DNA of 24,846 bases, from IMG/VR virus record IMGVR_UViG_3300042314_000743, positions 1-24,846 of that record; one strand, 5' to 3'. Source of the DNA: a virus. Under the pieces are notes generated by a model. That model saw nothing but the letters and a program-made list of their open reading frames with translations, searched no databases and was not told the origin of the DNA. Made by a program: the position numbers and the translations under genes. Positions 13,102-24,846 of the stretch are shown one piece after another (positions within the stretch are counted from its first letter, which is position 1; the number at the start of each line of letters is the position of its first letter).

Positions 13102-13476
13102 TTAGACTCCGGTGATCAGCGGGTAGCGGCTCGCGGAGATGGAGATCTGCTTGAAGCCGTCTGGCGTCTTGGAGATCTCGACGCTGTCCACGATGACCTG
13201 ACCAACGGAGACGCCGCCGACTGCCTCGATATTTGCGAGAGTGAGTGCGGTCGCCACCGTTGCGGCAACGACTCCGGTCGATCCTGCAACAGTCCCGGCA
13301 ACTGCAATCGTGGACTTCGGGTTGTAGTATGCAACGAGGCGAACTTCGCCGTTGTTGTCCCGAACCTCCTGCTTGTCCTGCGACGTAGAGATGGAGAACG
13401 AGGAGATGAGGATTCCGGTTTCGGCGGTGCAGCCGAAGGAGGTGCCTGTGGATGATCCGAGTAGGGTGACGGCCAT
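13102..13476 (-). CDS. Major tail tube protein candidate
   Basis: The protein is 124 aa, beta-rich, starting MAVTLLGSSTGTSFG, with strands such as ILISSFSIST and VILVDSVEIS-like and a C-terminal ISASRYPLITGV. The size and position (after the tail terminator and before the chaperones) fit the tail tube subunit. The long leader has a TTTGACA element 33 nt upstream and an A/C-rich stretch right before the ATG. The function rests on gene order; the sequence alone is not diagnostic. Confidence 0.65.
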   Translation of the reverse strand: MAVTLLGSSTGTSFGCTAETGILISSFSISTSQDKQEVRDNNGEVRLVAYYNPKSTIAVAGTVAGSTGVVAATVATALTLANIEAVGGVSVGQVIVDSVEISKTPDGFKQISISASRYPLITGV

Positions 13477-13509
13477 AAGTTTGGTGGTTGGGAGTTAGGA
13501 GTTGCGCGG

Positions 13510-13963: not shown

Positions 13964-14292
13964 TATTCGCGAATGGCAGTGACTTGGATCTCGTTGCCCA
14001 GGGGAGATCCGGTGAGCGAGGTGGCCGTCTCGACCCGGAAGGTCAGCTTCTCAGCTACCAGCAGGACGGAGGTGCCGAGTGCTGGCTTCGGTGCGCGGCC
14101 CACGGGCCAGCGAAGGGTGATGGATCGGTCGGTATTGAAGCCCCCCGTCTCAAGCGACATCGTCGGCTTCGGCGTGCTGACATGGGCGTAGAAGGTCCGC
14201 CCAGAAATGGTGACCTGTGTGCCGAGAGCATCGGCGAGTGTTGCAAGCCCCTTCGCATGGAAGGCGGCGATTGCTGATCGAGACAGGGCCAT
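13963..14292 (-). CDS. Head-tail joining/head completion protein candidate
   Basis: The protein is 109 aa: an N-terminal helix (SRSAIAAFHAKGLATLADAL), then beta strands (VTISGRTFYAHVST, SITLRWPVGR, EKLTFRVETA). Small beta-barrel proteins after the capsid gene are typical head completion or stopper proteins. A TTTGACA element is exactly 13 nt before its ATG, immediately after the capsid-gene hairpin, and its stop overlaps the next start. Confidence 0.65.
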   Translation of the reverse strand: MALSRSAIAAFHAKGLATLADALGTQVTISGRTFYAHVSTPKPTMSLETGGFNTDRSITLRWPVGRAPKPALGTSVLLVAEKLTFRVETATSLTGSPLGNEIQVTAIRE

Positions 14293-14371: not shown

Positions 14372-15229
14372 TTAGGCGGCGGTGACGATGAGGCCCATCG
14401 TTCCGGAAGTGACGGCCTTGGCCGCACCGAACATCACCTCGGCGGAGGCGACGAGAGCGCGGGAGCTGCGGTCTGCCATGACGTTGTAGTAGATGGAGAG
14501 GCCGAGCTGCTCGAGGACCACCACGTCGCTGATCAGATACTCGTCACGCACGTGATCAAGCGCAGGAGCGGCGGAAGCAATCGCGAGAGCCTCGGGGCTG
14601 CAAGCGAAACCAGCGAGGCGGGCCTGACCGCTGAACTGGTTGGCGTAGAAGACGCCGTTGTCGAAGCCATACGCGCCCTTGTCGAGCGTGATCGAGGTGG
14701 TCGCCGTCGGGATGATCCCGGAGTAGAGGGTCGGCGAGAGCACGAGGCCCTTGCTGTTGCTCTTGCTCACGGAGGCCCAGAGCTTGGCGAGATCGCCAGC
14801 GGCGAAGTTGGCAGTGGCTGTCGCGGGAGCAACAACTGCGGAGCCGTAGTTCGCAATGGTGATCGGGGTGGTTACGATGCTCCAGATTTTGTCTGCGAGG
14901 GCGTTCAAGTTGATCTTGACGAGCTTCTCGAGCTTGATCGCGTTCTGGATGTCCACATAGTCCAGTCCAAAGGGCTGGTAGATGTGGTCGAGGGCGACAG
15001 TCGCCTTGTCCAGAGTCGTGCCGCCGGTGCTGTTGAAGCTGGTCGGGTTGGTCTGGGTGGAGGCGGTTGCCGTGGCGACGGGCACCTGAACGGTGTCCTT
15101 GGGCTTCTTGACCTCTGAGGAGAAGTCGGTGCTGAAGAGGTTCAGAGCTGCAAGGCGGTTGCCAAGCACGGTCTGCGCCTGCTCAGAGATCGTGCTCGCG
15201 ATGAGCGCGGAATCAATGGTGTTGGGCAT
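14372..15229 (-). CDS. Major capsid protein
   Basis: The protein is 285 aa. The N-terminus (SALIASTISEQAQTVLGNRL) is a helix of the type seen in P22/HK97-fold coat proteins. The core has mixed helices and beta strands (KPKDTVQVPV, TLDKATVALDHIYQPFGLDY, GFACSPEALAIA), ending in MGLIVTAA. Position after the protease-scaffold gene, a large structural intergenic leader and the strong hairpin downstream suit the most abundant head protein. No N-terminal delta domain is evident, in line with a separate scaffold. The ATG has a CCCAA-repeat leader and no Shine-Dalgarno or TTTGACA element. Confidence 0.82.
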   Translation of the reverse strand: MPNTIDSALIASTISEQAQTVLGNRLAALNLFSTDFSSEVKKPKDTVQVPVATATASTQTNPTSFNSTGGTTLDKATVALDHIYQPFGLDYVDIQNAIKLEKLVKINLNALADKIWSIVTTPITIANYGSAVVAPATATANFAAGDLAKLWASVSKSNSKGLVLSPTLYSGIIPTATTSITLDKGAYGFDNGVFYANQFSGQARLAGFACSPEALAIASAAPALDHVRDEYLISDVVVLEQLGLSIYYNVMADRSSRALVASAEVMFGAAKAVTSGTMGLIVTAA

Positions 15230-15254
15230 GGTGGTGGGTTGGGTTGGGTTGGGG
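15230..15254 (+). promoter_or_regulatory. Four-tract G-quadruplex motif in capsid gene leader
   Basis: The plus strand carries GGGTTGGGTTGGGTTGGGG (15236-15254), four G-tracts with TT loops, ending 6 bp before the capsid ATG. The mRNA strand is (CCCAA)n, so the quadruplex could form only in the template DNA strand, not in the mRNA. Confidence 0.7.
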
Positions 15255-15292
15255 TTTGCTTGGCTTTCCTGAAGCGTTAGTGCCTCATGAAA

Positions 15293-16393
15293 TTAGTTGC
15301 GGCGGGCTGCGAAGATCGCGGCCTTGTGCTGCTTGAAGAGTTCGGCGGCGAGCTTCTTGTCGCCTGCCTCGACGGCGGCGGCATAAGCCTCGGCGGGGTT
15401 GAAGGGAGCGGCCTGCGCCTCGATCTCGATCTCGACATCGGAGGGGAGAAGTCCAGCGGCCCGGAGGGCGATGCGCTTGAGATCCTCCAGCTTGGCGATG
15501 GTCAGATCACGCTTCTCGACTTCAGCCTTCAGCGCGGAGAGATTCCTGTGAGCGGTCTCCAGGTCGGCGCGGAGGTTGATGACCTCGGCCTTGGTGTTCT
15601 CGAAATTCAGAACAACTTCGGAAAGCTTGGAGGAGAGCTTCTCCTCGGGGAGTTCCTCCACTTCGGCGGCAGGCTCGGGAGCAACCACTTCGGCTGCAGG
15701 CTCCACCGCATCAGCGGGCAGATTCTGCGTGCCTTCAGGCCCCTTCACTTCCTTCGGCCCCTCGGGGTCGTGCTGCGTGCCCTTGGGGCCGTCCACTTGA
15801 AGCTCGACGACGGCCTCATCGGCCTTCTCCTCTTCGGGCTGGGACTCGGTGACTTCCTCGACCTTCACTTCCTCGACGGATGCGACAGGGGGAACCTCTT
15901 CGGGTTTGATGTCTTCTGGCATAGCTTGAAAAAGACCGGATGGGTTCGCCGCTGGCTGATCGACGAGGGCCACGGCGTAGATTTCCACCGGCCGGGCGTA
16001 GCGGTATTCGTCGATCTCCTCGGAGATGCCGGAGAACTCGATGGAAAGGCCAAATGAGGAGGGCATCATCTCGGCCATCTCCATGATGCGCTCGTATTCC
16101 TCACCGCTTTTGATAAGGTGGAAGTCGGCGCGGAGTTGATTGCCCTCGATGACGAAGTCGCGGAGAACTCCCTCGATCTCACCGAAGCCGCTGCCGTGGT
16201 CGCTCTTGACCTGAAGACCGTCGATGTAGGTCTCAGCGGAAGCCTTGACCATTTCGAGGGATGTCTGGTCGATCCAGATGCCGTGACCCTTGGCCTCGAC
16301 CCCGGCTGTGATGACCGAGACACCGCGCAAAATGCCAGCCTCACGGTCAACCCGTGAGCCGGTTGCGGCGGCGAAAAGAGTCAGCTTCTGCAT
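15293..16393 (-). CDS. Prohead maturation protease fused to scaffold
   Basis: The protein is 366 aa from the ATG at 16393. Residues ~20-155 match phage head-maturation proteases: VKSDHGSGFGEIEGVLRDF (His66), then SSFGLSIEF (112-120) with the candidate nucleophile Ser, and a YAVALVDQPAANPSGLF end. Residues ~160-250 are an acidic Pro/Glu-rich linker with repeated GTQ elements. Residues ~250-310 are a strong coiled coil typical of scaffolding proteins, and the end is Ala-rich and basic. It would shape and then clear the procapsid interior. A TTTGACA element is 17 nt upstream and overlaps the portal stop. Confidence 0.82.
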   Translation of the reverse strand: MQKLTLFAAATGSRVDREAGILRGVSVITAGVEAKGHGIWIDQTSLEMVKASAETYIDGLQVKSDHGSGFGEIEGVLRDFVIEGNQLRADFHLIKSGEEYERIMEMAEMMPSSFGLSIEFSGISEEIDEYRYARPVEIYAVALVDQPAANPSGLFQAMPEDIKPEEVPPVASVEEVKVEEVTESQPEEEKADEAVVELQVDGPKGTQHDPEGPKEVKGPEGTQNLPADAVEPAAEVVAPEPAAEVEELPEEKLSSKLSEVVLNFENTKAEVINLRADLETAHRNLSALKAEVEKRDLTIAKLEDLKRIALRAAGLLPSDVEIEIEAQAAPFNPAEAYAAAVEAGDKKLAAELFKQHKAAIFAARRN

Positions 16394-22934: not shown

Positions 22935-22955
22935 ATTCAGCCTTCAGCCTTTCGG
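22935..22955. repeat. 7-bp repeat array D (TTCAGCC type)
   Basis: Two to three copies of TTCAGCC in the spacer between the 159-aa and 48-aa genes. Confidence 0.6.
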
Positions 22956-23463: not shown

Positions 23464-23476
23464 TCTTGGTTTTTTT

Positions 23477-23503
23477 TCAGCCTTCAGCCTTCAGTCTTCA
23501 GAC
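23477..23503. repeat. 7-bp repeat array C (TTCAGCC type)
   Basis: Three to four tandem units (TTCAGCC, TTCAGCC, TTCAGTC, TTCAGAC) just after the primase stop. Confidence 0.65.
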
Positions 23504-23515
23504 CTGCTGCCACCC

Positions 23516-24715
23516 CTATCGGTGGTGCAGATCGGCCAGAGCCCCCGCATCCCGTCGTAGCTCCTCCGCCATCGGTGAGAATTTCGCATTGCAGGGAGCG
23601 TAAAATTCCAGCCTCTCCGCGCAGGAGAGCATGAGGTCGGCATCCTCACCCCACGCCGCAGCGCGAGCCGCTTCCACCGCATCCCGCAGCGCATCGCGGA
23701 CGGGTGGCCGGTCCATGATCCGCTCACCGAAGGGAGGCCACGGATTCACATAGAGCAGCTTCTGGAGCGCACCCTTCTCAGGGCGGTATTGCTGGGGCAG
23801 CCGGGTCAGCCTCACCGCGGTCAGAGCCTTCGGATCAGCCCCGATCCGGGCGAGAGTAGCCTTCTGAGCGCGAGCCCAGGCATCCCACTCAGCCTTCGAG
23901 GTAGGGCCGGAGAGAGCCGACATCCCAGTTCCACTGCCCGGCACACGGATCAGAGCATGGACAGACCGACCACCAGAGGAATAGATCGCACTGACAGGAA
24001 GTGTCGTTTTCGCCAGCGCACCGAGCCAGATGCGAGGATCAGCCTCATCGGACTCCAGCAGGGCGAACTTCCAGCGCGTCACCGACTCCTCGGAGCGGCG
24101 GCTGGGCTTCCCCGTGCGCGGGTTCGGGTATTCGAGGCCATCGACCGGATTGGCCAGATACCACATCCCACGAGGACCGCAGGACGGGATCGGCTCATCA
24201 GGCCAGAGAGCCTGCCCCTGCGACTTATCATCCGAGAAAATTAAAACCTTCTCACCCGCATAGAGGAGAGAGAGGAACCCTGCCGAGTCGAGCAGAGAGG
24301 GATCGGCGTAGGATCGGGCCGCGAACCAATCCAGCCGGGGGCGGAACTCCCCAGCGAGAGCCGCCAGGGCCGCAGGGTCGAACTCCACCGGCTCAGGCTT
24401 AGGCATCGGCTTGTAGTCTTCAGCATTCAGCCTTCTTCCTTCAGCCTTTCCTTCCAGCAGATAGCCGGTGCCCTTCTTTGAGTGAGAGTTCGCGGCGGAT
24501 CGGAGCTTATAGGCCAGATCCCGTTCCGACCAAGGAGGAGCGCATCGCGAGTTATACTCCTGCATGAGCGACATCGCCTCCGACTCGCCCAGGGAGAACC
24601 CATGGACGAGAGCACACGCCACCGCGAAGGTCGCATCATGGCCCCCTGACCCGGCGACCGCCGCATCCATCCGCGCGATATAACGGGAAGCCCGTTCGAG
24701 GATCGTCACGCTCAT
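23516..24715 (-). CDS. Archaeo-eukaryotic-type DNA primase (prim-pol-like)
   Basis: The protein is 399 aa. Residues ~20-85 are a helical domain (GGHDATFAVACALVHGFSLG, WSERDLAYKLRSAANS) seen beside phage and plasmid primases. The primase core starts around 105: acidic motif FALLESDEAD (217-226), the S-x-H-like motif SGGRSVHALI (247-256) and RLTRLPQQYR (302-311), in the order of archaeo-eukaryotic primases. It would make primers for phage DNA replication. The linker at ~89-101 is encoded by a 7-bp repeat array. Its ATG overlaps the upstream gene's stop as ATGA. Confidence 0.78.
   Translation of the reverse strand: MSVTILERASRYIARMDAAVAGSGGHDATFAVACALVHGFSLGESEAMSLMQEYNSRCAPPWSERDLAYKLRSAANSHSKKGTGYLLEGKAEGRRLNAEDYKPMPKPEPVEFDPAALAALAGEFRPRLDWFAARSYADPSLLDSAGFLSLLYAGEKVLIFSDDKSQGQALWPDEPIPSCGPRGMWYLANPVDGLEYPNPRTGKPSRRSEESVTRWKFALLESDEADPRIWLGALAKTTLPVSAIYSSGGRSVHALIRVPGSGTGMSALSGPTSKAEWDAWARAQKATLARIGADPKALTAVRLTRLPQQYRPEKGALQKLLYVNPWPPFGERIMDRPPVRDALRDAVEAARAAAWGEDADLMLSCAERLEFYAPCNAKFSPMAEELRRDAGALADLHHR
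24413..24452. repeat. 7-bp repeat array B inside primase gene
   Basis: Imperfect TTCAGCC-type units encode residues ~89-101 of the primase, in frame, between its two domains. Confidence 0.6.
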
Positions 24716-24846
24716 GCGTGGGAGGCTGTTAGGCTGAAGGCTGAAGGAAGAAGGCTTTTACCCAGACTCTCAGCACGGCGTTGGGCGCGCGCCCTTTCGA
24801 TATGAAGAGCCTTCCTGTTTTGCCCTCTCACTCCAGTGCATGGAGA
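24712..24846 (-). CDS. C-terminal end of an unidentified protein (partial)
   Basis: The frame is open from the window edge to TGA 24712-24714, which overlaps the primase ATG as ATGA. The visible 44 residues include RGQNRKALHIERARAQRRAE, a basic helix, and a Ser/Ala/Leu tail encoded by a 7-bp repeat array. It is probably the upstream gene of the replication operon. The family cannot be told from this fragment. Confidence 0.55.
   Translation of the reverse strand, partial: SPCTGVRGQNRKALHIERARAQRRAESLGKSLLPSAFSLTASHA
24729..24757. repeat. 7-bp repeat array A (inverted orientation)
   Basis: GGCTGAA-type units with a related AGGAAGAAGGC segment, in the 3' end of the partial gene. Orientation is opposite to arrays B-D. 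Confidence 0.6.

Follow-up and report, generated by a model that had tools for sequence, protein, structure and literature searches.

A G-free, C/A-rich mRNA leader as a candidate Shine–Dalgarno-independent start signal of abundant virion genes in a phage family

The viral DNA analyzed here (the window; 24,846 nt, positions 1 to 24,846 of IMG/VR record IMGVR_UViG_3300042314_000743) carries nearly all of its genes on the − strand, and the mRNA of its putative major capsid gene is predicted to have a G-free, C/A-rich leader that abuts the AUG (AAACCCCAACCCAACCCAACCCACCACC; positions 15,230–15,257, − strand) and whose composition is kept across the family. We propose, with a probability of about 0.6, that this is a Shine–Dalgarno (SD)-independent, unstructured ribosome-loading leader found on abundant virion genes, and that its perfect repeat and quadruplex potential are secondary. 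The G-free C/A leader, its conservation, the covariation of an upstream hairpin and the exclusivity with respect to a TTTGACA element come from sequence comparison; from there we infer an action in translation (ribosome recruitment), a raised output and a role for the hairpin.

The putative major capsid protein (285 aa; positions 14,372–15,229, − strand) is assigned by weak matches to phrog_283 (major head protein) and by synteny. The window protein matches this profile with E = 7e-4, seven of 21 family members match (best 5e-5), and the gene comes after TerS, TerL and the portal gene. The − strand order is TerS, TerL (gpA type), portal, a gene in the protease/scaffold position (15,293–16,393, − strand; without a family match and with TTTGACA at −24) and the putative capsid gene. 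A profile search of the PDB found nothing, tblastn of annotated phage records found no homologue, and an AlphaFold model of the capsid from 21 sequences was set aside (mean pLDDT 46). Major capsid proteins are generally the most abundant virion proteins. Elsewhere in the window, short tandem arrays of the 7-bp unit TTCAGCC occur at 22,936–22,951, 23,476–23,501, 24,418–24,448 and 24,731–24,756, and some of them fill gaps that precede − strand genes in its right-hand part.

The initial annotation had drawn attention to a perfect G3T2 quadruplex motif on the template strand just before the capsid start. The motif is real: four G-tracts, (GGGTT)3GGGG, the last of them GGGG, occupy positions 15,236–15,254 of the + (template) strand, and the mRNA complement is CCCCAACCCAACCCAACCC. 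From 15,230 to 15,258 the + strand reads GGTGGT-GGGTTGGGTTGGGTTGGGG-TTTG; the span of 15,230–15,257 first assigned to the motif contains the tracts and is slightly wide at its borders. The reported distance of 6 bp to the start codon holds, as GGTGGT (15,230–15,235) separates the G-tracts from CAT, the capsid ATG of the − strand. This is the sole canonical G3+ site (loops of 1–7) of the + strand, and a weaker single site lies on the − strand at 1,257. Second-order Markov shuffles give 0.8 expected G3+ sites per window on both strands, so the presence of some G3+ site is not unusual; the exact four-fold G3T2 form appeared in 0 of 400 second-order shuffles. The motif has the four tracts of at least three Gs with short loops that characterize regulatory DNA G-quadruplexes, its G4Hunter score is about 2.0–2.3, and from its letters it could plausibly fold into a quadruplex in vitro.

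For comparison, 80 capsid homologues were taken from viral contigs, and more were obtained with a profile and two divergent members as queries. Three further homologues came from bacterial assemblies, namely a Verrucomicrobiota MAG, a Chthoniobacter flavus MAG and a MAG labelled Burkholderiaceae. The comparison set consisted of 64 distinct capsid leaders and 418 other leaders from the same phages; the sequences are distinct but phylogenetically related, so that P values are too small and overstate the evidence.

Four C-tracts are kept in six of the 64 capsid leaders, against 1.2 expected from composition, and this excess is driven by the clade of the window. Outside that clade they occur in one of 57 leaders, with 0.8 expected when the same 35-mers are shuffled. 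The initial annotation had suggested that a template-strand quadruplex might keep the DNA open for re-initiation or make RNA polymerase pause; formed during transcription, it would in this way regulate the capsid gene. In favour of this are the four perfect G-tracts with TT loops right at the start, with the G4Hunter score given above, and the four-tract form seen in L027 and a number of close relatives. However, the form is lost in L005, whose capsid is 96% identical and whose leader (CCCAACCCAACCCAACCACC) has three tracts plus CC, and it is missing in L016, L017, L019 and almost every more distant relative, while C/A content persists. Across the 64 distinct leaders, quadruplex potential is thus not conserved at the orthologous site, and because the tracts are lost and the C/A composition is kept, selection follows composition rather than the quadruplex. 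(CCAA)n repeats, which are incapable of forming a quadruplex, are likewise found ahead of start codons in numerous viral contigs, and the published expression-promoting bacterial quadruplex sits in the non-template strand (PMC11087576). Bacterial 5′UTR and non-template quadruplexes resemble the phage motif in having G-tracts near the start region, but the phage G-tracts are on the template, the mRNA has C-tracts, and the four tracts are not conserved (PMC11087576). We therefore regard transcriptional regulation by a quadruplex as very unlikely, and read the motif as real but misinterpreted as to strand and molecule, with the C/A mRNA leader and the hairpin as the candidate functional part. The motif would then be the DNA complement of an mRNA leader of ~30 nt that runs up to the capsid AUG, lacks both an SD and G and is rich in C and A, and its quadruplex potential a by-product of the C/A tract.

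Common to the capsid leaders, down to 54% identity, are ~25–40 nt before the AUG that are (almost) without G and consist mostly of C and A; the tract has no fixed sequence motif. Directly before the start, the median G-free run is 29 nt in the 64 capsid leaders versus 2 nt in the 418 others (P about 1e-27, sequences not independent), and the run reaches at least 25 nt in 46/64 versus 19/418. A second gene of the window has the same type of leader (CAACTCCTAACTCCCAACCACCAAACTT; positions 13,477–13,504, − strand), with TTTGACA at −40. It encodes a putative major tail protein (124 aa; 13,102–13,476, − strand), named by position and size; a profile search gave no PHROG match. The capsid-type leader is found in 14 of 16 distinct orthologues of this gene, with TTTGACA displaced to −40 to −57. 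Since the same leader type occurs on the putative tail gene, it resembles a start signal for high output of abundant virion proteins, a role that we infer from what the two genes encode (capsid and putative tail).

The perfect CCCAA repeat of the window is probably a local version of the C/A tract made by slippage. An array of this kind could also be an intergenic microsatellite that expanded by slippage and has no function of its own. Its fairly pure pentamer unit, length differences of one unit among close relatives (ACCACC versus ACC, CCC versus CCCC) and the occurrence of similar CCAA and CCCAA arrays elsewhere are in line with such an origin. Neutrality is nevertheless unlikely, given that G-free C/A composition is kept at 54–66% capsid identity despite different sequences, and that the tract reaches right up to the AUG, is found again in a second gene family and stands far apart from the remaining leaders of these phages.

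At a number of starts in the window, for example the − strand starts at 14,292, 18,662, 21,035, 7,285, 3,357 and 18,164, TTTGACA is followed by 13 nt and the start codon, and TTTGAC is exactly at −20 in 136 distinct leaders of related phages. In agreement with the initial annotation, no TTTGACA is found within 60 nt of the capsid start. TTTGAC at −27 to −12 and a G-free run of at least 20 nt are almost exclusive (2/202 versus 64/401; Fisher 4e-10, related sequences). In a Chthoniobacter MAG, whose leaders were called with a codon-usage ORF caller, TTTGAC falls in the −27 to −12 range in 2 of 187 leaders, and TTTGACA-N13-ATG occurs only four times in 2.8 Mb; because of this rarity, the element looks like a phage-specific, start-associated one. 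It is too near the start to be a −35 box. Of the initial annotation's interpretation, the comparative evidence favours one part, the suggestion that the CCCAA leader may itself help ribosome loading and offer a start signal other than TTTGACA.

The capsid leader sequence has no SD at a functional spacing from the start, the nearest AGGA being more than 30 nt upstream in the 3′ arm of the hairpin. The conserved AGGA(G/A)A was ruled out as an SD, as it is 25–40 nt from the AUG and forms this arm. The predicted unpaired fraction of the capsid start region is 0.87, versus 0.35–0.75 for nine other genes of the window, which corresponds to the low structure around the AUG that is associated with SD-independent unstructured leaders. 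Lacking G, the leader would be unable to pair with itself in the mRNA, so that the AUG and some 30 nt before it would stay single-stranded and could serve as a landing site for the small ribosomal subunit without an SD. On abundant virion proteins it would act as a high-output start signal in place of the TTTGACA element at −20.

Non-SD initiation is known to correlate with weak structure near the AUG (PMC5397173). Low-structure non-SD starts, including the A-rich leaders of Bacteroidota (PMC5397173, PMC7043885), share with the phage leader the absence of an SD, weak structure at the AUG and avoidance of G; these starts differ in being A- or A/U-rich and genome-wide, whereas the phage leader is C/A-rich, belongs to particular genes and has an upstream hairpin. 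Translational enhancers rich in CA/ACA are described in the enterobacterial mRNAs gltI, yifK and dppA (PMC3879156). There, too, a C/A-rich single-stranded stretch upstream of the start raises initiation, and its position is not strict, but these enhancers are upstream of a working SD, while the phage tract abuts the AUG, has no SD and is richer in C. In E. coli, A-rich reporters lost their expression when A upstream of the start was changed to C (PMC7043885); a C-rich leader would therefore serve that ribosome poorly, which argues against a simple transfer from E. coli.

Directly upstream of the leader, the mRNA can form a hairpin that the initial annotation did not mention, UUUC-A-UGAGGC-[ACUAAC]-GCUUCA-G-GAAA (positions 15,265–15,292, − strand), which follows the stop codon of the upstream gene and precedes the C/A tract. 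Capsid leaders of the family usually have such a small hairpin before them, and its architecture is kept with other letters in relatives (UUUCC-AA-GGC-[CUGA]-GCC-AA-GGAGA; UUUCC-G-GAG-[CCAC]-CUC-A-GGAAA; UUUCC-AA-GGA-[GUAA]-UCC-AA-GGAGA). Covariation was assessed by swapping arms between clades, because automatic alignment put the 3′ arm out of register. Native halves had a mean of −8.3 kcal/mol versus −6.1 kcal/mol for cross-clade chimeras (permutation P = 0.005, nine clade representatives); the halves were split by hand and the outer arms preselected by motif, so that the result speaks chiefly for the inner stem. In many relatives, the last codons of the upstream gene make up the 5′ arm and its stop codon sits in the loop, and protein coding therefore accounts for part of the arm's conservation. 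The UAA stop of the upstream gene (15,293–15,295, − strand in the window) lies in the apical loop in, for example, L021, L032 and L149, but just upstream of the hairpin in the window's clade, a placement that hints at a possible coupling of termination with hairpin opening. The hairpin was ruled out as an intrinsic terminator, in which a U-run comes after a GC-rich stem, as it is followed by a C/A tract.

A binding or processing site, instead of a plain ribosome landing site, would also fit a hairpin that shows compensatory changes and sits at a gene boundary immediately before a single-stranded tract; neither a promoter-like nor a terminator-like site was found. Possible variants are an endonuclease cut that leaves a protective 5′ hairpin on the capsid mRNA, or the binding of an RNA-binding protein of the phage or host. 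We think this improbable, slightly more so than a neutral repeat, as the clades L209–L230 and L340–L368 have no hairpin and still keep a nearly G-free leader, and the tract itself shows no fixed motif. Under the ribosome-loading explanation, the short hairpin over the end of the upstream gene would mark the 5′ border of the leader and keep it free of upstream pairing.

Similar leaders occur more widely. An exact scan of viral contigs found 64 stretches with (CCCAA)3CCC at most 20 nt from an ATG, and of 58 distinct contexts, 32 lie between genes and have a predicted start no more than 20 nt away. Among 30 downstream genes outside the window's family, 23 lack an SD-like sequence in the final 20 nt; most are small and of unknown function. 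The (CCAA)n leaders that cannot form quadruplexes are at least as frequent in these contigs as the (CCCAA)3CCC ones. That C/A leaders outside the family mostly precede small genes, which are not obviously for abundant proteins, counts against our reading, and as such leaders are not confined to capsids, the argument from abundance is tempered.

The best reading of the host phylum is Verrucomicrobiota, based on three MAG contigs, of which one carries the label Burkholderiaceae. The latter contig (L149) is a family member with 57% capsid identity and the same hairpin and leader; it is either misbinned or a sign of a wider host range. Some Verrucomicrobiota species are scarce in SDs although the anti-SD is retained (PMC10783764). 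In the Chthoniobacter MAG, 9 of 187 leaders are G-free, so a G-free leader is not a general host rule. Across 147 genomes of the order of this MAG, exact CCCAA or CCAA arrays before an ATG are almost absent, as is their G-strand version; exact arrays are therefore not a host habit, and their near-absence does not discriminate between the hypotheses. A cellular case of a C/A repeat leader was observed in a Chthoniobacter MAG (L246:434–475), where (CCAA)7 ends just before the ATG of a 166-aa gene whose N-terminus resembles a signal peptide.

As a more tentative proposal, which we hold possible but doubtful, the phages would use two near-exclusive start signals, TTTGACA 13 nt before ordinary starts, and a G-free C/A strip on the capsid and putative tail tube genes that recruits ribosomes without an SD, with a covarying hairpin at the capsid. 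The ratios of virion proteins could thereby be set in a gene-class-specific manner. If right, this would provide a readable rule for bulk-made genes in a large group of uncultured phages with relatives in Verrucomicrobiota MAGs, as well as a test case for SD-independent initiation by C-rich rather than A-rich leaders. It would also illustrate that a perfect quadruplex motif can arise as a by-product when selection acts on the complementary mRNA.
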